A DNA stretch of 64,000 bases, taken from positions 1-64,000 of the forward strand of contig JANBVI010000008.1 of the NCBI GenBank assembly GCA_024239075.1. The letters run 5' to 3'. The notes beneath the pieces are model-generated. The model saw only the letters and a list, made by a program, of their open reading frames with translations, made no database searches and was not told the DNA's origin. This DNA is from Fischerella sp. CENA71 (GTDB taxonomy: Bacteria > Cyanobacteriota > Cyanobacteriia > Cyanobacteriales > Nostocaceae). Below are positions 10,390 to 45,120 of the stretch, piece after piece. Both the position numbers and the translations under genes were made by a program. Numbering within the stretch: position 1 is the stretch's first letter; each line of letters begins with the position of its first letter.

Positions 10390-13300
10390 TCACTCCGCCC
10401 CCAACTCCTTCAATACTTCCCACGTCAACGGATTCTTCCCAGCCTGCAAATCCTTCACCCAACCTTCCCGTTGTCTCTTCGCCCCATCATCCTTACTTGA
10501 TTTAATAAATACCTGAAAATCCTCAATCGCACCTGCATAATTACCAACTAGCGCCCTTGCCAAACCCCGACTATCGCGGATATCGCCATTTTCAGGAGCC
10601 AGTTTCACAGCTTTTTCACAAGCATCATTAACTACATTCTTCACATAACCTTGCAGGCTACCCTGCCTACATAGGCTGTTCCAAGCTTTAGCTAACACTT
10701 CTTTAGTCGGCTGTAGCTGTTCAATCTTTTGATAAACTGCAACAGCCTGGTTATATTCATCTTGCTTTAAATGTTCTTTGGCTTGGGAAACTAAATCTAA
10801 TACAAAAAAGTCTTTAGCAGCTTTTTCGGGATTATTTTGTACACCTTCAGTATCTGCATCAAAGTCAACTTTAGGGTCAATTTGCTGTGCTTGTTTAAAC
10901 TTGGCAACTGCTTCTGCAATATCCCCTTGTCTCGCTAGGGCTGTGGCTTGATCAATTAATCCTTTGCTGATGAGTTGTTTGGCAACTGTTTCTGAGTTAG
11001 TTTGGACACCTTCAGTATCTGTGTCGAGATCAACTTTGGGATTGAGTTTTTGTGCTTGTTTAAACTTAGCCACAACATCAGCAACATTGCCTTGTCTGGC
11101 TATGACTATGGCTTGATTCATTAAGCCTTTGCTGGCAAATTGTTTAGCAATTTGTTCTGAGTTAGTTTGTACACCATCATTATCTGTGTCGAGGTCAACT
11201 TTGGGATCAACTTTTTGTGCTTGTTGAAACTTAGCAACTGCACCTTTCAAATCGCCTTTGTCTGCTATTTCTCTGCCTTGCTTCACTAATGCTTGACTGA
11301 CAAATTGTTTGGCAACTTTTTCAGCATCATTCTGCACGCCATCGGTATCTGGATCAAGGTCAACTTTAGCATCTTGTTGCTTTGCTTGTTGAAACTTGGC
11401 AACTACACCATCAAAATCACCTTTGTCTGCTATTTCTCTACCTTTAAACGCCAAACGAAGAGATTCAACTTTTGCTTCTGGATTAATCTCTAACTTAGAG
11501 TCCCATGTTTTCGCTATTTTGAACTTAGCCAGCGCCTCGTCAAAATTACCTTGATTCGCTGCCTTTTCTGCTGCTGTCACCATTACTGGCGCTGCTGCTA
11601 ACAAAATATCTGGCTTTTGGCAAACTTCCAATTGTTCTAAAGCCTCTGGATGGGTAACTAAATAATTTTTCAGTCTTTGACAACCCCTTGCCAGTAAATC
11701 ATCCAAATCGAAGTACCAGATTTTGATTGTGTTGTCGTAACTAGCAGAAGCCAGGGTTTTGCCATCACTGCTAAATGCCACGCCACTGACATAAGATGAA
11801 TGTCCGGTGAGGGTGCGAATCACTTTACCCGTGCTGCTGTCCCAGATTTTGATTGTCTTGTCTCCACTAGCAGAAGCAAGGGTTTTGCCATCACTGCTAA
11901 ATGCCACGCCTAAGACAGCAGAGGAATGTCCTGTGAGGGTGCGAATCACTTTACCCGTGCTGCTGTCCCAGATTTTGATTGTCTTGTCTCCACTAGCAGA
12001 AGCGAGGGTTTTGCCATCACTGCTAAATGCCACGCCTCTGACATAATCGGAATGTCCTGTGAGGGTGCGAATCACCTTTCCCGTGCTGCTGTCCCAGATT
12101 TTGATTGTGTTGTCCGAACTAGCAGAAGCCAGGGTTTTGCCATCACTGCTAAATGCCACGCCTCTGACATAATCGGAATGTCCTTCCAAGGTATTTGTTT
12201 CTTGCATCTCTGGCAACATCTCTTGAATGCTGACTATAGGACTCAAAGCCGGGTAATCAACAATTGAAGCTTTTTCCTTAACTAACCCCTTAAGAGTTTG
12301 TCCCCCCTGCATCGCCATCACGAAACTTTCAACTTTTTCTGTTGGATTTGACTTAAATCGTTCCAGGGCATATTTTCCCTCTCTTTCTACTTCAGTAGCA
12401 GTAAAAGCCCTTTGTCTACCTTGTTCTACCATTACCGCTACTACCATCGCCCCCAGCAGCGACACTCCCAAAATCGCAGCGCCTATATAAGTTTGTCGGC
12501 GGGTTTTCTTTTTTGCTTGTCTCTCTTCTTCTAAAGCTACTTCTGCTTTCTTTTGCGCTGTTTCTACAATCTGCTTGGCTTCTCTCTCTGCTGCCAAAGC
12601 AGTTTGCATCTCTCGCTGATCCAATTCTTGGCTAGCCGCCAAAAACTGATAATCCACATCACTTAAACTTTTGCCCGTTGCCCAAGCTTGCACATCCCGC
12701 AACGCCTGTCCCCGCAAAAGCCAAGATTCTTCTTTGTTGCTACTCACCCATGCTTCCAATGCTTCGGCGTAGGGGCGTAAATCTGCTAAGGCTTTTGTCA
12801 CCCATTCCTGATTAAAAATAGCCTCGTAAACACGATTGTATACTTTTAACTTCCCCTCCCGTTCCACCACCAACCCCGTCAGCCGCAATTCTGTATGTTC
12901 AAGGCTATTATCAGCATCTATCCCCTCTGAGCCACCCTTTTCATCTAAGCCCCCCTTAAAAAGGGGGGTTTGGGGGGATCTCAAAATCTGCTGGTATAAT
13001 CCTAACCACCTGCTAGCCTTCTTCTCATTCCTGAGTATCCTGTCACGAATCGTCCGCAAATGCTCCGGTTCATCGCGAAATTCCCAATTTTCAATCACAC
13101 AGGACGTTACCAACTCTTCAATATACAACCCCTCTCCGCCTGCATCGCCCTTCTGTGATTCGGGAGCGGAATTGAGAGAAGAGTTAATCACCAGTTGACA
13201 CAACTTCTGCGTCAAAAACGGCTGTCCCCCAGTCCAACTTAAAATCTCTCGCATCACTGCTTGAGGATTAGTAACTTTTTCTACCAATCCTGCGGCAAGT

Positions 13301-13962
13301 GATTCAACTTCCTCTAACTGAAATCCTTGTAATTCAATTGCTCTGCCAATATTAAACGGTGTGCGCTTTTTATCTGCAATCAAATCTGAGGGAGTCGCCA
13401 CACCAATCAACGCAAAAGTCACGCGATTATATGCAGGCTGATCAGCACGCTGATTGTAACAATTACGAATCACAGCAAAAAAATCCTCAATCGGAAAACT
13501 CAAACTGAGGACACTATCAATTTCATCAACAAAAATTACTATCTGTTCCGTAATTTTGACTAATAAAACATCTTCGACAAACTTGCTGAATCGCTGCACA
13601 GGCGAAAGCAAATGATGCTCATACCACCAAGTTTCTAAATCAAAATCATCATATAAATTCAAACTTCCCACCAAACTATCAATTACCCCTGCATACCATT
13701 GTTCCGGGGTAATCTCCCAACTGCCAATTGCCGTAATATCAACCGCAGCACAAGCAATCCCCTCTGCTTGCAACCTCTGCATCGTCCTTACCCGCAGACT
13801 CGATTTACCCATCTGTCGCGAGTTCAGCACATAACAAAATTCTCCCGCCTTTAGCGCCGCATACAAATCTTGGTCTGCTTGCCGCGTCACATAGGTGAGA
13901 GAATCAGTTGGTAAGCTGCCCCCGACTTGGTATTTATAGCTCGAATTTGGCTGTGCGTTCAT
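10390..13962 (-). CDS. Large AAA-like ATPase/WD40/acidic-repeat protein
   Basis: 1190 residues in four parts. (1) An AAA-like (AAA_35) ATPase domain, residues about 1-400, with P-loop-like NSRQMGKSS and Walker [11 protein letters not shown]. (2) A coiled coil and one membrane segment (about 490-512, [19 protein letters not shown]). (3) Four nearly identical WD40 units (about 591-750; [20 protein letters not shown] type). (4) From about 795, five units of about 50 residues of TPR-like helices, four of them carrying an acidic loop such as [11 protein letters not shown]. The C-terminus ends in TPR-like helices. Such proteins are thought to be membrane-linked signalling or conflict ATPases (inference). 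Residues about 326-346 ([12 protein letters not shown] region) are encoded by a dispersed repeat inserted in frame. Confidence 0.85.
12935..12985. repeat. Palindromic C/G-run repeat inside a coding region
   Basis: CCCCCCTTAAAAAGGGGGG (12950-12968) plus the following TTTGGGGGGATCT is a dispersed cyanobacterial repeat. Here it lies inside the AAA/WD40 gene and keeps the frame open, adding residues like [10 protein letters not shown] between the ATPase domain and the coiled coil. Confidence 0.75.
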
Positions 13963-29962: not shown

Positions 29963-31525
29963 ATGCCAAAAGATAATCCAAAAGTTAGCCTAGATGCACT
30001 AATACCTAGAGAAGCATTTGAAGTTCAAGGGCAGCAAAGTCAAAACATAGGAAGAAATATTCCTATGATATCGGTTCGTGATTTAGAACCAAACTCTTTT
30101 TTCTATCCATTTCTACGTAAACCTGATTTTCAAAGAGAAACTAATGAGTGGGATGTTGGAAAAATTTGTGGGTTTATAGAAAGTTTTTTGGATGGAGATT
30201 TGATCCCAGCAGTTATTCTTTGGAGAAGTTCTAGTAGTTATTATTTTGTCATCGATGGCTCACATCGCCTTAGTTCTCTAATAGCCTGGATAAATGATGA
30301 CTATGGTGACGGCAAATTTTCTAAAGAATTTTATGATGGAGAGATCACAGAAGAACTGAAAAATGCTGCTCAAGAGACAAGAAAACTAATTAAATCAAAA
30401 ATCGGTTCTTACAAAGATTATCAATCATTAACACAGAAGCAAGGACAGATAGATCCAAAAATGCTTGAGAGAGCAAGAAATTTGGGTGCTTTAGGTGTCC
30501 AACTTCAGTGGCTTGAAGGCGATGCAGCCAAGGCAGAAGCCTCTTTTTTCAAGATAAACCAAAAAGCTACACCAATAGGTGAAACCGAGATACGTTTACT
30601 AGAAGCTCGAAAAACGCCTAATGGTATTGCTGCTCGTGCAATCATGAGAAGTGGTAGCGGTCATAAATATTGGTCAAATTTCTCCCAAGAAAAGCAGGAT
30701 GAAGTCGAAAAAATAGCTCAAGAAATACATCAACTTATTTTTGAACCAAAATTAAAAAATCCGATCAAAACTCTAGACGTTCCAATAGTAGGAAATTTAT
30801 CATCTTCAGAAAAACTTGAAGTTATTTTAGAGTTTGTAAATCTCGTTAATGGTATAGAAGAAGATAAAGAATTGGGAGAAGATTTCATAGGAGAAAAAAC
30901 AATACAATTACTAAAAAATTGTGTCAAGTTAGCTCGAAGAATAAACTCCAATGATCCTTCGTCTCTCGGTCTTCATCCAATTGTATATTTTTACACTGGT
31001 TTGGGCAAGTCTAAAATTGGCTCTTTTTATGGTGTAGTTACCTTAATATTACATTTGGATAGAACCAAATATTTTTCTAAATTCATACAAGTAAGGAAAG
31101 ATTTTGAATGGGTTATTTGGCAGGATGATATGATTCCTGAAATTGTCAGGAAGAGTAAAGCTGTAGAAGCAAATCAGAAAGTCAAAGATTTTTACTTAGA
31201 AATAATTCACAAATTATTGAATGGTGTAGATAGGAAAAATATCATTAAGGAAATAGTAGCTGAGAAAAAATTCGGTACATTAAAAACAAAAACTAAAGCT
31301 AATACAAGTGATTCCGAGGGTAAAAAGTTTTCAGGAGAGACAAAAACGGCAGCTTTTATCAGAGATGCTTTACCCAAAGTTCCACGATGTAAAATATGTG
31401 GTGGTTATCTCCACAGTCACTCTATTTCGATAGATCACATCCAAAGGAGAGCAGATGGCGGTAATGCTACTTTAGATAATGCACAATTGACCCACCCATA
31501 CTGCAATACAACATTTAAAAATTAA
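29963..31525 (+). CDS. DUF262/ParB-like plus HNH nuclease protein, candidate defence gene
   Basis: 520 residues. The N-terminus has RKPDFQRETNEW (52-63) and FVIDGSHRLSSLIAW (95-109), matching the R-x-P-x-(F/Y)QR and DGQ(Q/H)R motifs of DUF262/DndB-like nucleotide- or DNA-handling domains. A helical middle follows. The C-terminus is an HNH nuclease: Cys476-x2-Cys479, Asp491-His492, Asn506 and His511-x2-Cys514. This pair of domains is seen in restriction-type proteins such as the GmrSD group, where it cuts modified or foreign DNA. No partner methyltransferase or helicase lies next to it. The gene is AT-rich and isolated, which suits transfer. Activity is inferred. Confidence 0.78.
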   Translation: MPKDNPKVSLDALIPREAFEVQGQQSQNIGRNIPMISVRDLEPNSFFYPFLRKPDFQRETNEWDVGKICGFIESFLDGDLIPAVILWRSSSSYYFVIDGSHRLSSLIAWINDDYGDGKFSKEFYDGEITEELKNAAQETRKLIKSKIGSYKDYQSLTQKQGQIDPKMLERARNLGALGVQLQWLEGDAAKAEASFFKINQKATPIGETEIRLLEARKTPNGIAARAIMRSGSGHKYWSNFSQEKQDEVEKIAQEIHQLIFEPKLKNPIKTLDVPIVGNLSSSEKLEVILEFVNLVNGIEEDKELGEDFIGEKTIQLLKNCVKLARRINSNDPSSLGLHPIVYFYTGLGKSKIGSFYGVVTLILHLDRTKYFSKFIQVRKDFEWVIWQDDMIPEIVRKSKAVEANQKVKDFYLEIIHKLLNGVDRKNIIKEIVAEKKFGTLKTKTKANTSDSEGKKFSGETKTAAFIRDALPKVPRCKICGGYLHSHSISIDHIQRRADGGNATLDNAQLTHPYCNTTFKN

Positions 31526-38777: not shown

Positions 38778-39320
38778 CTACGCCTGTTCCCAAAGTTCGC
38801 GCACGTGACCGGGAAGCCAGCTAGCAATCTCTTGAATGCGCTCTTGGGAAAGTTCTTCTTTGGTAGCAGAAAATACAGCTTTTACGACTTGCTCACGATC
38901 AGCTGTGGGTGGTAATCCTCCCTCGTTAGCGACTCGGAAAAGGAAGCGATCGCTATCAATTTTGAAAATACCAGGGCCTTGCCAAGGTGGACGTACCCGG
39001 CTCAAAAAGCCGACAATCGGGTTAGTATCTCGCCAGAGTTCGGCTACTTCTAGCTTTTGAAGTTCCTTCTCTTCTGTGGTGTAGGCTGGTTCATGCAATT
39101 CGGCTTCGACATGATCGGCTGCTTCTGTAGTCATTAAGTCACGCATAACGCGAAATACAACTTCAGTTAAATCTCTGGCATCATAAGGATCAGCAAGTCC
39201 ACCTCTGACCATAACTTTGTCCAGAAACGATCTGTGTTCGTCTGCGATCGCAACTCTAGTATCTTCAATCTCAGTAGGATCAACTTCCGGTAAGTCTTTT
39301 CTTAAAGTTTCGTCCGGCAT
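38778..39320 (-). CDS. DUF2267 protein
   Basis: 180 residues, acidic and soluble. Segments [40 protein letters not shown] and [11 protein letters not shown] match DUF2267, which is usually made of helical repeats with alternating Rossmann-free helices and is seen in stress-linked contexts. The middle ([15 protein letters not shown]) is unique to the longer cyanobacterial form. Function is unknown. ATG 39320 is preceded by an AT-rich leader. Confidence 0.82.
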
Positions 39321-39675
39321 ATTTTTTCTCGTGTTTTCTAGTATTTAGCAATTATGCTCATTTACTAAATTGCACTAGTTAAAAATGCTTAACACCGTTC
39401 CAAAGTTGGAGAAGGTCGGTAGCCAAAAGTTAGAGATTATTCTAGTTCTTCCGATTTCCCAGTGAGATGAAGCTAAAAGCCTCCTGAATTTACTGGTTGC
39501 ATATAGTCTTGACAAATAACAGATACCAGATAATTTGTAGATGTAAACAATTTACTGAACAATTCATTTAAAAATAAACATTTTAGATTTATTTAATATC
39601 AAAATCTAGATTTTTATATAAATCAATTAAATTTGCATTAGTTATAAAGTAAGTTTAAATAAGCATTTTAACTTT
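39321..39675. other. Divergent intergenic stretch, 355 bp
   Basis: It lies between the DUF2267 gene and the peptide-export operon. It is very AT-rich toward the export operon. No small precursor ORF with a double-glycine motif and no shared repeat is seen. Promoters for both sides must be here but none stands out. Confidence 0.4.
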
Positions 39676-41826
39676 ATGAAATATGCTCACGTCTTACAAC
39701 ATAACAAAGAAGATTGTGGTGCCGCTTGTCTTGCTGCAATTACCAAATATTATGGACGTAATTTTACTCTCAACCACATTCGTGAAGTCGTAGGTACTGG
39801 ACAATTTGGAACAACATTGTTGGGGCTAAAACGAGGTGCTGAAAGACTTGGTTTTAATGCTCGTCCTGTTAAAAGTTCACCAGAAATTTTAAACCGAATC
39901 AATAAAGCACCTCTACCAGCAATTATTCATTGGCAAGGTCATCATTGGGTAGTTTTATATGGTAAAAAAGGCAAAAAATGCGTAATTGCTGATCCTGCTG
40001 TAGGAGTGCGGTATCTGTCTCCACAAGATTTAGCAGAAGGTTGGACAGATTGGTTAATGCTTTTACTACAGCCAGATCCAATCAGATTTTATGCTCACGA
40101 GAGCGATCGCATCGGTGGTTTTTGGCGTTTCTTCAAGCGCATCTGGAATTTTCGCACGATTCTAGCTCAAGCCTTACCCCTGAATCTGATTTTAGGATTG
40201 CTATCTTTAGCTTCTCCTTTTCTGTTACAAATTCTCACTGATGATGTGCTAGTTCGAGGTGATACAAAACTCCTCACTACCATGGCGATCGCTGTGGTAG
40301 CCATGAATGTTATTTCTAGCAGTCTATCTTGGGTACAGTCTAACTTAATTGCTCACTTCTCCCAACGTCTGCAATTGAGGCTAGTTCTGGAATTTGGGCG
40401 TCAAATTCTACAATTACCACTCTCGTATTATGAAGTTCGTCGGAGTGGAGAAATCGTCAGTCGCCTACAAGATATTAACCAAATTAATCAACTAGTTGCT
40501 CAAATTGTTGTGAGTCTGCCTAGTAAATTTTTTATTGGTATAATTTCTTTAGTAATTATGAATTATTATAGCTGGAAGCTAACGATTATAGCTCTTTTAG
40601 TTTCTATATTAATGGTCATATCTACAGTCATCTTCCAGCCCAAACTACAGCAAAAAACTCGTGAGATTTTAGTTACAGAAGCCGAAGCACAAGGTGTTTT
40701 AGTAGAAACTTTTAAAAGTGCGCTTCTTCTCAAAACTACTACAGCATCACCGCAATTTTGGGAAGAATTACAAAGTCGATTTGGGCAAATTTCTGCTTTG
40801 ACATTAAGCACAACGCAGATTAGTATAAACAATCATATATTCTCTACTTTAGTTTCTGGGATTGGTAGCGTTGCTTTACTTTGGTTTGGTGGAAGTTTAG
40901 TTATTAATTCAGATGAAAACCTCAGTATTGGGCAACTACTTGCATTTAACTCAATGAATGGTAATTTCGTCAGCTTAATTGCTACTAGTATTATTTTCAT
41001 AGATGAATTGACTAAAACAAAAATTGCCACACAACGCCTTGCAGAAGTCATAGATATTACTCCAGAAAATCAAGATGACGGTAAAAAGCAGTTTGCGACA
41101 ATTTCTGAAGATGCTGACTTGATTTGTAGTAATGTTAGCTTTCATTACCCTGGTCAAATTGAACTGCTCAACAACTTTGATTTAACAATTCCTGGCGGTA
41201 AAGTTATCGCCATTATTGGTAAATCTGGTTGTGGTAAAAGCACGCTCGCTAAAATTATGGCGGGTTTATATCCACTCAAATCTGGTAATATTCGCCTTGG
41301 AATTTATAACCTAGAAGACCTAAGTTTAGATTGTCTGCGTCAACAGGTAGTTTTAGTTCCCCAAGACGCTCAATTTTGGAGTCGTTCTATTATTGAAAAC
41401 TTTCGTTTGGGAGCGCCTGATCTTACATTTGAGCAGATTGTGAAAGCTTGTCAAATAACACAAGCAGATGATTTTATTAGTAAACTTCCTCATAAGTATC
41501 AAACCGTTTTAGGTGAGTTTGGAGCAAATATTTCTGGTGGACAACGCCAACGCCTAGCAATAGCAAGAGCCATTGTTACAAACCCACCAGTATTAATTTT
41601 GGATGAATCGACTAGCGGACTCGATCCAGTCAGTGAAACACAAGTTCTAGATCAGCTACTCACGCATCGTCATGGGAAAACTACGATTTTGATTACTCAC
41701 CGTCCCCAGGTAATTAATCGTGCTGAGTGGATTGTAGTACTAGATCAAGGAAAGTTAAAAACTCAAGGTTCTTTAACGCAATTACGCTGTCAATCTGGAG
41801 AACATTTGAAATTTTTAAATCCTTAA
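39676..41826 (+). CDS. Peptidase-containing ABC transporter (C39), peptide exporter
   Basis: 716 residues in the order peptidase, membrane, ATPase. The C39 peptidase has Gln8, Cys14 (KEDCGAACLA), His90 (QGHHWVVLYG) and Asp106 (VIADPAVG). The membrane domain (about 160-440) has six helices. The ATPase has Walker A IGKSGCGKST (near 515), signature SGGQRQRLAIARAI and Walker B VLILDEST. Such transporters cut a leader after a double glycine and export the core. The HlyD-type gene is 24 bp downstream and the precursor candidate further on, so the three form one locus. Confidence 0.93.
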   Translation: MKYAHVLQHNKEDCGAACLAAITKYYGRNFTLNHIREVVGTGQFGTTLLGLKRGAERLGFNARPVKSSPEILNRINKAPLPAIIHWQGHHWVVLYGKKGKKCVIADPAVGVRYLSPQDLAEGWTDWLMLLLQPDPIRFYAHESDRIGGFWRFFKRIWNFRTILAQALPLNLILGLLSLASPFLLQILTDDVLVRGDTKLLTTMAIAVVAMNVISSSLSWVQSNLIAHFSQRLQLRLVLEFGRQILQLPLSYYEVRRSGEIVSRLQDINQINQLVAQIVVSLPSKFFIGIISLVIMNYYSWKLTIIALLVSILMVISTVIFQPKLQQKTREILVTEAEAQGVLVETFKSALLLKTTTASPQFWEELQSRFGQISALTLSTTQISINNHIFSTLVSGIGSVALLWFGGSLVINSDENLSIGQLLAFNSMNGNFVSLIATSIIFIDELTKTKIATQRLAEVIDITPENQDDGKKQFATISEDADLICSNVSFHYPGQIELLNNFDLTIPGGKVIAIIGKSGCGKSTLAKIMAGLYPLKSGNIRLGIYNLEDLSLDCLRQQVVLVPQDAQFWSRSIIENFRLGAPDLTFEQIVKACQITQADDFISKLPHKYQTVLGEFGANISGGQRQRLAIARAIVTNPPVLILDESTSGLDPVSETQVLDQLLTHRHGKTTILITHRPQVINRAEWIVVLDQGKLKTQGSLTQLRCQSGEHLKFLNP

Positions 41827-41850
41827 TTATTCATACTTATTCGCGTAATT

Positions 41851-43263
41851 ATGCTCTACACTCATAATCAAAAAGTTTTGCTGTCAACACCAAGTGAAGA
41901 GTTTCTTCCGCCTGTTAATCGCTGGACATCTTTAGCAGGAATTTTTCTTGTCGGGAGTATTGTAACTACTATTACTTTATGTTCATTCATTAAATACAAT
42001 GTCACTGTAAAAGTTACTGGTATTGTGCGTCCTACAGGAGAAATTCGGTTAGTACAATCAAAAATTGAAGGAATTGTTAAAAGTATTTTGGTTAAAGAAG
42101 ATCAATTAGTTAAACAGGGAGAGGTGATCGCTTATCTTGAAGATAAACAATTACAAATTAAAAATAACCAACTGCAAGGGAATATCCAACAGGATAAATT
42201 ACAAATAATCCAAATCAATGCTCAAATTAAAGCCTTAGATTCCCAAATTCAGTCTGAAACAATAGTAGCAGAACGGACAGTAGCTTCTGCTAAAACAGAT
42301 TTGCAACGCAATCAACAGGAATATCAACAGCGACAAATTACCACGAATAGCGAATTACTTGCAACTCAAGCAAATTTGCAAAAAGCCCAAGCCAACTTGC
42401 AAAAAGCTCAAGCTGATTTAAGTTTTGCACAGATGGATCGCGATCGCTATCAGCATCTATCAGAAATTGGTGCTATTGGGAACCGGGAATTTGAGCAGAA
42501 AAAGCTAGTTGTGAAGCAAACTAAAGCCATGCTTGAAGCTGAAGAAAAAGCTGTTGATATCGCCAAAGCTCAAGTGCAATCAGCTAAAGCTGCTATTAAT
42601 CCTACCACTGCCACAGTGGCGATCGCTCAACAGCGCATTACCCAAGAAACTGCAAGAGGAAAAGCAACTATCGCTTCTTTAAAAAAAGAAAAACAAGCTT
42701 TAATTCAGCGTCGAGTTGAAGTAGAAAAGCAACTCGGACAATCTCAAAAAGAACTCCAACAAATAGCCAATCAGCTGCAAGATACTATTGTGCGAGCAAC
42801 TAGTGATGGTATCATCTTCCAGTTCAATTTACGAAACCCTGGTCAAGTACTAAGAGTTAGCGAAGCGATCGCTGAAATTGCTCCTAATCATGCTCCTGTT
42901 GTCATTAAAGCAATCATTCCCACTCACGATATCAAAAATGTTGCAGTTGGTCAAAAAGTACAATTGCGAATAGATGCTTGTCCTTATCCTGATTATGGAA
43001 CTCTTAAAGGAGTTGTTGAAGTTGTTTCTCCAGACACAATTACACCTACAAGCAATAATATAAATACAGCAAAATCAGAATCTACAACTTCTGCTGTTAG
43101 CTACTTTGCAGCAACTATTCGACCCCAAAGTCTAACATTTGGAAATGGTGAGCGCCAGTGTCATATCAAATCAGGGATGCAGGTAAAAGCTGACATTATT
43201 TCTAGAGAAGAGACAGCACTGCAATTTATGCTGAGAAAAGCCAGGTTAGCTACTGATTTATAG
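41851..43263 (+). CDS. HlyD-family membrane fusion protein
   Basis: 470 residues. One membrane anchor near the N-terminus (LAGIFLVGSIVTTITLCSFI), a biotinyl-lipoyl-like half (IEGIVKSILVKEDQLVKQGE), a long coiled coil (about 100-310; LQKAQANLQKAQADL is typical) and a beta-barrel end (VQLRIDACPYPDYGTLKGVV). It bridges the ABC exporter to an outer-membrane channel. No TolC-like gene is next to it, so that part must be shared from elsewhere. It is co-transcribed with the exporter, judging by the 24-bp gap. Confidence 0.9.
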   Translation: MLYTHNQKVLLSTPSEEFLPPVNRWTSLAGIFLVGSIVTTITLCSFIKYNVTVKVTGIVRPTGEIRLVQSKIEGIVKSILVKEDQLVKQGEVIAYLEDKQLQIKNNQLQGNIQQDKLQIIQINAQIKALDSQIQSETIVAERTVASAKTDLQRNQQEYQQRQITTNSELLATQANLQKAQANLQKAQADLSFAQMDRDRYQHLSEIGAIGNREFEQKKLVVKQTKAMLEAEEKAVDIAKAQVQSAKAAINPTTATVAIAQQRITQETARGKATIASLKKEKQALIQRRVEVEKQLGQSQKELQQIANQLQDTIVRATSDGIIFQFNLRNPGQVLRVSEAIAEIAPNHAPVVIKAIIPTHDIKNVAVGQKVQLRIDACPYPDYGTLKGVVEVVSPDTITPTSNNINTAKSESTTSAVSYFAATIRPQSLTFGNGERQCHIKSGMQVKADIISREETALQFMLRKARLATDL

Positions 43264-43278
43264 ATCACAACACAATAC

Positions 43279-43389
43279 GTACTGGCGTGGCAAGCTTAAA
43301 ATGGTGCATTAATAAACCGCAGAGGCACAGAGAACACAGAGATAGAATCAGAGATTTATTGCACTATTTTAGCCTTGCCATGCCAGTAC
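43279..43389. repeat. MITE-like palindromic element, copy 2
   Basis: The left arm GTACTGGCGTGGCAAGCTTA and the right arm TAGCCTTGCCATGCCAGTAC pair over about 34 bp with few mismatches. The inner part has AACCGCAGAGGCACAGAGAA, a string often found in cyanobacterial intergenic DNA. The element matches the one at 6792 in core arms and length. It lies between the HlyD gene and the precursor peptide gene and could act as a transcript-processing or termination hairpin. Confidence 0.75.
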
Positions 43390-43632
43390 AGGTAGTTAGC
43401 TAATAATCTAACTAGTGCATATGAACACATACAACAAAATCTTTTTATTTCCGCGATTTTCATGCTAATTATCTAGCAAATATTAGTGTCAAGATATTCA
43501 TTGATTTATATTATCGTTATTATATTAGAAATTTAATAATTTATGATTGCATGAAAGTCGTATATCAATTTAAAAAATTCTAACTTTATAGAATTATTAG
43601 TTAGAAGTTAAAGTGAGTTGGAGAAACAAATT
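43390..43632. other. Leader of the precursor peptide gene
   Basis: AT-rich, no open frame. A ribosome-binding site GGAG (43620-43623) lies nine bases before ATG 43633. The separate leader makes an own promoter for the peptide gene likely. Confidence 0.45.
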
Positions 43633-43830
43633 ATGCAATTTACAAAGCCAAAAAAACATGTTCAACCCACACAAGAGAACCATGAATTTGAACTTTTTGA
43701 AGACTTAACAGATGAAGAGATAGAGAAAGTATGTGGTGGTGTTACGAAATTAGACTTTGAAGAATTTAAAGCTGATTTCAAATTAGCCAAGATTGAGTTT
43801 ACAGCAGAATTTCTAACTTTGAAATTCTAA
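43633..43830 (+). CDS. Double-glycine precursor peptide, putative secreted peptide
   Basis: 65 residues from ATG 43633, with GGAG upstream. The leader ends in LFEDLTDEEIEKVCGG, which fits the ELSxEELExVxGG leader recognised by C39 transporters, so cleavage after Gly36 is expected. The core would be 29 residues (VTKLDFEEFKADFKLAKIEF then TAEFLTLKF), with Phe/Leu spaced every three to four residues (an amphipathic helix), no cysteine or serine, and about equal acidic and basic residues. No modification enzyme gene is next to it, so an unmodified bacteriocin or signal peptide is the simplest reading. The role is unknown. Confidence 0.8.
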   Translation: MQFTKPKKHVQPTQENHEFELFEDLTDEEIEKVCGGVTKLDFEEFKADFKLAKIEFTAEFLTLKF

Positions 43831-43916
43831 GACAATTGCTGGATTTATACAATAAGAGTGCTTAATTATTTATAGGATTTAAGCATAGGAAATATTTACT
43901 TTTTGCTTGATTTATC

Positions 43917-43945
43917 ACCAGAGAAGTTTCTTCTACTGGTGTTTT
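43917..43945 (+). terminator. Rho-independent terminator after the precursor gene
   Basis: ACCAGAGAAG, TTT loop, CTTCTACTGGT, then GTTTTA: a ten-base stem with one bulge followed by a short T run. It ends the peptide transcript 87 bp after the stop. Confidence 0.7.
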
Positions 43946-43977
43946 ACGTTAATGTGACTTCGACAAATATTATCAGA

Positions 43978-44190
43978 CTAAGTAAGTCGGCGTTAATATT
44001 TCAAACTATATTAATAAATTTAAAGTGGGGTGCGTTGCAATACGGTTCGGTTAAGAATTTTTCGTCATGCTTTGGGATGTAGAGACGTGCCATGGCACGT
44101 CTCTGGTGGGTTTAGATGTCTCATCGATTTGTCTTATCCGAACCGTATTGGGGTGCGTTGTCGCGCAGCGTAACGCACCTTCAAATAGAC
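43978..44190. repeat. MITE-like element (TTAAGTAAGT family), copy B, with a nested element
   Basis: The left end (CTAAGTAAGTCGGCGTTAAT) and next 40 bp match the left arm of the element at 34756. Inside it, 44038-44150 is a second element with 18-bp ends CAATACGGTTCGGTTAAG / CTTATCCGAACCGTATTG, flanked on both sides by GGGTGCGTTG as a probable target duplication. The right end of the outer element is degraded. Confidence 0.7.
44038..44150. mobile_element. Nested 113-bp miniature element with target duplication
   Basis: The terminal inverted repeats differ by one base over 18. A perfect 24-bp palindrome (44081-44104, AGAGACGTGCCA and its complement) lies in the middle. The ten-base GGGTGCGTTG on each side is present once in the related element at 34.8 kb, as expected for an insertion. 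It has no coding capacity, so it must be moved by a transposase from elsewhere. Confidence 0.7.
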
Positions 44191-44220
44191 GCACGAAATG
44201 CGACTTCTCAACAGAGTAAT

Positions 44221-45120
44221 CTAAAATCCAAAATGGTATAACCACTCTACAATCTGTGAATTCACCACATCCGGTACTTCATCATGAGGACAATGGCCAG
44301 CGCCAGGAATGGGAACAATTTTGATATTCTGACCATTCTCCCGCGCTTGTTCGTAAATCTTCGCACCAGCGATTGGTGTCCAAGGATCATCAGCACCCCA
44401 AATTACTAGCAGAGGATGTTGGACTTTCGGTAATAGCTCTTCAGGTCTGGGGCCTGGAGGTGCGGTAAGGATAGATGCGAAAACTTTTTGCGCTCCTGGA
44501 TCACACGATGGTGTATGAAGTATATCTACCAATTCATCAGTGACGGCTTGGCGATCGCGATAGACTTGGTAAAGAGTACGGCGAATTTGATGTTTTTGCC
44601 GAATGCGGTTAAATACGAATGTCCCCGTAATCGGATGACCAACCAGTTTATTAAAAGCAGACATCACAACTCGTAGCGGTGGGTTCAATTCGTGAGGACG
44701 ATGACTCAAACCCCCCGCAGAGTTAATCAACACCCCACCCGCAACAATTTCTGGATATTTGGCTAATACGATCAAACTTAAAAGTGCGCCGATAGAGTTA
44801 CCAATAAATACGGCTGGTTCGTTAATATGGGTTGTCCAAAAATCTTTAAGTAGTTCCACCCAAAGTTCTACTGTATAATCAATGGCTGCTTTTTCAGAAC
44901 CACCAAATCCCAGTAAATCAAGGGCAAATACTTGATAGCCAGCATCGGCTAAAACGGGGATATTTTTTCGCCAATGACCAATACAAGCACCAAAGCCGTG
45001 AACTAAAACTAAGGGTTTACCTGTTCCCACAACGGTGTATTGAATTTTATAGCCTTGCCAAGTCCAAAAGTATTTTTCAAAAGTGGCTATTGTCGGTAGC
45101 TGCTGGATATTTACAGTCAT
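44221..45120 (-). CDS. Alpha/beta hydrolase, pheophytinase-like
   Basis: 299 residues. HGF oxyanion (LVLVHGFGACIGHW), nucleophile Ser in FIGNSIGALL, acid in LVIWGADDPWTP, and His in GAGHCPHDE. The pattern HGFGA-x-IGHWRKN is typical of the plant and cyanobacterial group that includes pheophytinase-type esterases. The substrate is not shown. The 3' end lies just after the MITE-like elements. ATG 45120 gives the expected length. Confidence 0.88.
   Translation of the reverse strand: MTVNIQQLPTIATFEKYFWTWQGYKIQYTVVGTGKPLVLVHGFGACIGHWRKNIPVLADAGYQVFALDLLGFGGSEKAAIDYTVELWVELLKDFWTTHINEPAVFIGNSIGALLSLIVLAKYPEIVAGGVLINSAGGLSHRPHELNPPLRVVMSAFNKLVGHPITGTFVFNRIRQKHQIRRTLYQVYRDRQAVTDELVDILHTPSCDPGAQKVFASILTAPPGPRPEELLPKVQHPLLVIWGADDPWTPIAGAKIYEQARENGQNIKIVPIPGAGHCPHDEVPDVVNSQIVEWLYHFGF

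Follow-up and report, generated by a model that had tools for sequence, protein, structure and literature searches.

Fischerella sp. CENA71 carries a compact locus for a predicted exported peptide within the stretch of DNA analysed here, a window of 64,000 nucleotides (nt) from its genome (G000; 7.47 Mb, 95 contigs). A first-pass annotation had proposed a C39-type ATP-binding cassette (ABC) exporter, a HlyD-type adaptor and a precursor with a double-glycine (GG) leader at 39676..43945, and the three open reading frames (ORFs) and their Pfam domains are found at that place. Comparative sequence analysis indicates that the precursor gene is real and that its core is under constraint, and the core is probably helical, with hydrophobic faces on opposite sides. 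What is new is a small peptide family, whereas the kind of locus that encodes it is known.

We consider the precursor to be real because the GG is retained by orthologues from eight species in two genera, and because omega, the ratio of non-synonymous to synonymous substitution rates, is below 1 for the core in 27 of 28 orthologue pairs. The remaining pair, from Pelatocladus maniniholoensis (G001) and Westiellopsis prolifica (G003), differs by eight non-synonymous and no synonymous changes. Median omega for the core was 0.40, and the last 20 codons of the leader gave 0.53, both on small site counts; core identity to the window copy ranged from 19 to 24 of 29 residues, compared with 84–89% for the exporter. 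Conservation of the GG in homologues had been named beforehand as a test of the locus, and the leader motif VCGG, which includes both the GG and a Cys at -3, is invariant in all eight orthologues. A search of 60 relatives gave clear orthologues in six, the source genome counted, and a search of 218 family genomes with an alignment as query gave matches in 18 at E <= 0.01; eight of these were strong (E <= 4.4e-32), comprising all five genomes shown as the genus of the source and all three of a second genus. When 84,980 species genomes were scanned by pattern, 71 candidate stretches yielded six loci, in P. maniniholoensis, W. prolifica, Fischerella muscicola SAG 1427-1 (G002), Fischerella PCC 9431 (G004), F. 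thermalis PCC 7521 (G011) and F. muscicola PCC 7414 (G114). The named carriers, Pelatocladus, Fischerella and Westiellopsis, all belong to the Hapalosiphonaceae, Nostocales. An order-wide search found a precursor match at E <= 1e-5 in 2 of 388 genomes, a sample with few genomes per genus and with known carriers left out, which cannot rule out additional family members.

Protein family scans against Pfam and NCBIfam, with their curated cut-offs, did not place the precursor in an existing family. It scored 15.6–17.3 bits (E 0.004 at 17.3 bits) on the CTB family bacteriocin model NF038167, for which the cut-off is 32, and 14.8 bits (E 0.026) on ComC, for which it is 20.4. Five of 12 precursor-family members matched NF038167 at E <= 0.1 (best E 0.0036); membership of the CTB family was rejected, the score being under the cut-off. 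The Nif11 and nitrile hydratase-like leader peptide (NHLP) models gave no match to the precursor at E <= 1 in either database, and neither was among the families listed for the 12 members at E <= 0.1, in agreement with the initial reading of the leader as neither type.

The predicted mature core, VTKLDFEEFKADFKLAKIEFTAEFLTLKF, is free of Cys and has Phe at positions 6, 9, 13, 20, 24 and 29, as originally described, the Cys at -3 belonging to the leader. The description Phe-rich suits the window copy, but this composition is not strictly conserved: the eight orthologues have 4–7 Phe among 29 residues, and only F13 and F24 are invariant. Across all eight, 13 core positions are always hydrophobic, 14 are always polar and two are mixed; 11 are invariant, and net charge stays between -2 and 0. 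Hydrophobicity averaged over the orthologues peaked at 155 degrees per residue (p for the maximum over angles 0.0034 and 0.0036 on two scales), and the hydrophobic moment at 100 degrees was at chance (p 0.575 and 0.802). Individually the eight cores gave p values of 0.002–0.005 for the maximum, although these tests are not independent, since the cores are related. Control cores from a second GG locus of the same genome, on contig C63, were without the 155-degree peak (p 0.11–0.96 for the three of five that were tested, namely L033, L034 and the below-cut-off L037; L035 and L036 were excluded as near copies).

The 155-degree peak can be understood as an alias of two faces on a helix, from which a 160-degree period is indistinguishable. 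In a two-face test of the core placed on a helix, p was 0.009 with 100 degrees per residue and 0.0006 with 102.86; a one-face test gave 0.69 and 0.91, respectively. Within 45 degrees of the two-face axis lie 12 of the 13 hydrophobic and two of the 14 polar positions at 100 degrees, or 10 and one, respectively, at 102.86 degrees. One face is aromatic (F6, F9, F13, A16, F20, F24, L27), and the opposite one is aliphatic (V1, L4, L15, I18, L25, F29). AlphaFold2 modelled the core alone as a helix over residues 3–29 of 30, with a mean predicted local distance difference test score (pLDDT) of 83.2 and a predicted template modelling score of 0.41. The model and the periodicity together suggest that the core probably forms a helix in which an aromatic and an aliphatic face lie opposite each other, with charged residues between them. 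Of the amphipathic helix proposed at the outset, the helix probably stands, supported by the model of the core alone and weakly by that of the whole precursor, while its one-faced character was rejected, both the 100-degree moment and the one-face test being at chance. Other candidate patterns were also set aside. A beta-strand reading of the 155-degree period was dropped given the helical core model, and flat-strand angles of 170–180 degrees gave no signal (whole-core p 0.67–0.96 at 170 degrees; 0.62 and 1.0 in the face test). A seven-residue repeat that looked plausible by eye was rejected, since lag 7 was not significant over all lags (BLOSUM, maximum p 0.12) and lag 11 ranked higher (0.011). 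The maximum of an AGGRESCAN-like score failed to separate the orthologue cores from the C63 cores, and it was not used as support.

The exporter has Pfam matches to Peptidase_C39 (122 bits), ABC_membrane (118) and ABC_tran (107), in the order C39 (residues 3–130), transmembrane region (169–428) and ATPase (498–647), with no N-terminal CAP_ED extension, and its putative catalytic triad of Cys14, His90 and Asp106 matches that of PCAT1 (4ry2) by alignment. It fails the NHLM exporter model TIGR03796, with 443 bits against a required 853, and the HlyD-type protein, at 182 bits, lies under the cut-off of 208.65 for TIGR01843. The source genome has 11 C39 matches above the cut-off, and a TolC-like OEP gene, a 764-residue frame, lies away from the locus on contig C74. 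In an exporter tree of 29 rows from the fetched relatives (one more locus yielded none), a single clade with a support of 100/100 is made up of the six cognate exporters, and the exporters of CTB loci, such as that on C63 of the source genome, form a separate clade.

Precursor and cognate exporter occur together at two separate sites in six of the eight species. At the first site, in the source genome, P. maniniholoensis and W. prolifica, the cassette lies between DUF2267/uvrA and a hydrolase (names assigned by eye except DUF2267); at the second, in PCC 7521, PCC 7414 and a further genome (G115), it adjoins a glucosidase-like gene (by eye). Only the three genes and their flanks are conserved inside the block when the eight loci are compared by blastn, with no further conserved stretch and hence no conserved immunity gene, and no sensor or regulator gene. 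In SAG 1427-1 and PCC 9431 only the precursor and its upstream element remain. No exporter or HlyD fragments were found in the 20 kb around these two precursors, and the best exporter matches in the two genomes are 74–75% identical, compared with 84–89% for cognate ones. The PCC 9431 assembly is 100% complete in eight contigs, and that of SAG 1427-1 is 99% complete in approximately 520. Micallef et al. (2015, PMC4558948) list, in the text available, two group III clusters each for PCC 7521 and PCC 7414 and one each for PCC 9431 and SAG 1427-1, counts that agree with a missing cognate exporter in the latter two strains.

Group III clusters are described, in the portions of the sources available to us, as a short C39 exporter with HlyD and without a second transporter or LanM (Wang et al. 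2011, PMC3140520; PMC4558948), and they rank second in abundance among the groups of Subsection V (PMC4558948). The locus is alike in its short C39 exporter, adjoining HlyD gene, nearby GG precursor and absence of a tailoring enzyme. It differs in having one precursor, whereas group III averages 3.89, and the NHLP and Nif11 models of Pfam and NCBIfam give no match to that precursor; likeness to HetP and DUF37 was covered by those scans only. No LanM, S8, SurA or second ABC gene was seen in the cluster, the wider neighbours being read by eye, and the S8 protease of the window is 18 kb off. The initial statement that no modifying enzyme lies close by holds for the conserved block, and the predicted peptide is likely unmodified. 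On its gene features the locus fits group III, a layout known since 2011 and not exceptional, and the suggestion that GG peptides without modifying enzymes are an exception in cyanobacteria has to be withdrawn.

Other GG precursors in the genome, which the first-pass annotation had advised looking for, are present at the CTB locus (L078, G000:C63:8000-23000), which encodes a C39 exporter, HlyD and four CTB precursors, with a fifth below the cut-off. It resembles our locus in HlyD, in the leader end and in an exporter 74% identical to the locus exporter. However, its four precursors score 65–74 bits on NF038167, its cores are longer and, in the three tested, without the 155-degree pattern, and it has additional adjoining genes. 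Its precursors are followed by response regulator-like and sensor kinase-like genes (by eye), an order that is the same in several other fetched genera. In Nodularia, CTB genes are induced when phosphate is limiting, according to the available text of PMC9846622. More distant relatives occur in a third genus (g17; G086 and G087), whose precursors have the leader family and the 58-bp upstream element in common with the locus; their cores (34 residues in G086, 19 in G087) are only loosely alike, no exporter lies nearby, and G086 has three tandem copies. These precursors adjoin epimerase-like and small secreted protein-like genes (L125 8768-10377 and L126 9305-9481, by eye), and similar-looking genes on contig C64 of the source genome adjoin a small-RNA-like unit instead.

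Our tentative explanation, which we hold at somewhat less than an even chance, is that a single 29-residue peptide, unmodified, is produced, trimmed and exported by the locus and acts outside the cell, binding to itself or to a surface. By analogy with known families, the C39 domain would cut the precursor after the GG in the cytosol, and the peptide would pass through the exporter and HlyD to a TolC-like channel whose gene lies elsewhere. Outside, its two hydrophobic faces may mediate association, either of the peptide with itself or with a surface, a step with moderate support. A two-faced, slightly acidic helix with a binding side on both faces would suit bundles, stacks or fibres better than the lysis expected of a cationic one-faced helix. 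There is a precedent in Synechococcus elongatus, in which the GG peptides EbfG1-4, exported by the C39 exporter PteB, serve the biofilm matrix, according to the available text of PMC4997328 and PMC9981879. The GG leader and C39 exporter are alike; self-association of our peptide is a proposal, and the cores were not compared by sequence. The mature EbfG forms are of 6–7 kDa and form cross-beta amyloid, whereas our core is estimated at approximately 3.4 kDa and is probably helical.

Several observations weigh against this explanation. Expression of the gene and secretion of the mature peptide are predictions from sequence. Short peptides are readily drawn as helices by AlphaFold2. The model of the whole precursor was poor (pLDDT 54.5), though its core part was helical there also, and the helix model of the core alone contains no binding partner. 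A period of 155–160 degrees is also compatible with a twisted strand. Distant cores are without the pattern (p for the maximum 0.75–0.79 in two of the three G086 cores; 0.08 in the G087 core). An immunity gene may sit elsewhere than in the block, and the core changes faster than the exporter, as a toxin would. Finally, EbfG1-3 amyloid has been modelled as cross-beta, so that, if our core is helical, EbfG is a precedent of use and not of structure.

The peptide could instead be an unmodified class II-like bacteriocin of the microcin type, harming related cyanobacteria, which we regard as somewhat unlikely. The leader and exporter are of the type found in bacteriocins, clusters of group III go by the name of bacteriocin clusters, the leader has its weak likeness to the CTB family and ComC, and the core is probably helical and is less conserved than the exporter. 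Nevertheless, the block holds no conserved immunity gene, the net charge and the lack of one-faced amphipathicity speak somewhat against it, the hydrophobic/polar pattern is kept across two genera, and the groups of Wang et al. are defined, as far as the available text goes, by gene layout and not by tested killing. It is also conceivable, though improbable in our judgement, that the peptide is an extracellular signal that acts inside filaments or passes between relatives and is perceived through a conserved receptor. Its constrained core, an upstream element of its own in common with putative small RNAs, and its retention without a cognate exporter in two of eight species, with a core omega of 0.16 between them, would all suit a signal, and in Nostoc cell differentiation is driven by HetC, itself a C39 exporter (PMC10986499, available text). 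Against this, the block has no sensor or regulator gene, and 29 residues with 13 hydrophobic positions would be large and sticky for a diffusing signal. That the neighbouring exporter is not the sole or true partner, the peptide being served mainly by the paralogous exporter of the CTB locus, would accommodate the intact precursors of SAG 1427-1 and PCC 9431 and the failure of tblastn to find a C39 exporter in the 19–19.5 kb around the G086 and G087 precursors (G087 gave only a 31% match to a transporter ATPase half), but it is very doubtful given the pairing at two separate sites, and the many contigs of the SAG 1427-1 draft, unlike those of PCC 9431, could hide an assembly gap.

Upstream of the precursor lies a 58-bp element that is likely a promoter. 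It aligns without gaps upstream of all eight orthologues and of four GG precursors of the third genus, namely the three tandem copies of G086 and the single one of G087, with a mean identity of 85%. A model of the element (R1) matched 12 of the 218 family genomes at E <= 0.001, in 41 places, 12 of which are GG genes, with up to 12 matches per genome (G086, GG genes included). Most copies away from GG genes precede short units ending in a hairpin and a T-run. Rescanning the fetched loci gave 47 elements distinct in their first 140 nt, 11 before GG ORFs and 36 others. A hairpin with T-tail occurred within 160 nt of 34 of the 36 others, whereas random positions in these loci had one in 83 of 300 cases and the GG genes in 2 of 11; the count of 34 is loose, the detector having accepted some unlikely hairpins (e.g. 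L152, L153, L172). Stems of these small-RNA-like units are often GCCAGTGG/CCACTGGC, and in some units the arms carry matching changes (GTCAGTGG/CCACTGAC and GCTAGTGG/CCACTAGC). We infer from these sequences a promoter type common to GG peptides and putative small RNAs. Rfam gave no matches at gathering scores on seven element-bearing loci, a literature search for a 12-letter string of the element returned one unrelated paper, and a sigma-70 scan around the precursor gene found three sites with 4.0 expected. Heterocyst promoters (DIF+, TCCGGA at -35), as given in the available text of PMC6133370 and PMC4734099, were considered and are unlike the element by eye. It may be conjectured, at long odds, that a genus-restricted group of two-faced helical peptides, slightly acidic and assembling extracellularly after export by a dedicated C39 exporter, is co-regulated with multi-copy small RNAs through this promoter type and forms one regulon with them in branching cyanobacteria. 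One element copy of the source genome lies at G000:C64:117371-117427 on the minus strand (L152), with further copies in L147-L175; L147, L148 and L149, from W. prolifica, P. maniniholoensis and SAG 1427-1, respectively, are strong peptide-type copies (46–54 bits) that no GG ORF follows; they may represent decayed genes or RNAs.

Such peptides merit attention: the available text of Wang et al. (PMC3140520) predicts 290 precursors of this kind in 58 cyanobacterial genomes, and that of PMC4997328, from 2016, calls the functions of cyanobacterial GG proteins uninvestigated before EbfG. The points of interest here are the fixed two-faced pattern, the persistence without a cognate exporter and the upstream element in common with other units. 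The peptide is small and, to judge from the locus, unmodified; it is conserved in culturable Fischerella strains, and its two-face design is sharp and testable. Natural variants with the exporter (PCC 7521) and without it (PCC 9431) allow a direct test of whether it is a matrix builder, a toxin or a signal, and the common upstream element offers a handle on the timing of its production.

Table 1. Positions of the peptide locus and its parts in the window.
Feature	Position	Strand	Basis
Conserved block, one unit at two different genomic sites	39493..43945	+	blastn of window 39301-44240 against eight orthologous loci
C39 peptidase-containing ABC exporter (PCAT, short type), 716 aa	39676..41826	+	Pfam; PCAT1 alignment
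HlyD-type membrane fusion protein, 470 aa	41851..43263	+	Pfam HlyD_3 (56 bits), Biotin_lipoyl_2
Upstream element, TTGCAT-N5-nGnAT direct repeat then promoter-like hexamers (by eye)	43546..43603	+	ungapped alignment of 12; model R1; family search
Shine-Dalgarno-like GGAG	43620..43623	+	read directly; other orthologues have GGAG or GAGG
Precursor gene, 65 aa	43633..43830	+	ORF with ATG at 43633, stop ending at 43830
Leader, 36 aa, ending LTDEEIEKVCGG	43633..43740	+	orthologue alignment
Predicted mature core, 29 aa, net charge -1, probably helix	43741..43827	+	orthologue alignment; periodicity tests; AlphaFold2
Inverted repeat TGCTTAA..TTAAGCA after the gene, possible terminator	43858..43886	+	read in sequence; shuffle test

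In the window copy (z 0.13) and in PCC 7521 (z -0.88) the inverted repeat after the gene did not outperform shuffled sequences, and in P. maniniholoensis it was strong (z -5.86); a terminator scan around the gene found none on the plus strand and one on the minus strand, with 0.4 expected. Within each cassette flank there were no repeats of 18 nt or more besides a 19-nt inverted repeat directly after the cassette (window 44038-44150; arms 95% complementary, 75 nt between them), possibly a small mobile repeat, and none longer than 12 nt was shared between the two flanks. Elsewhere in the window, positions 29963-31525 (+) encode a protein with GmrSD_N and HNH domains, possibly a modified-DNA restriction enzyme, and positions 10390-13962 (-) encode a 1190-residue protein with AAA_35, WD40 and TPR repeats.

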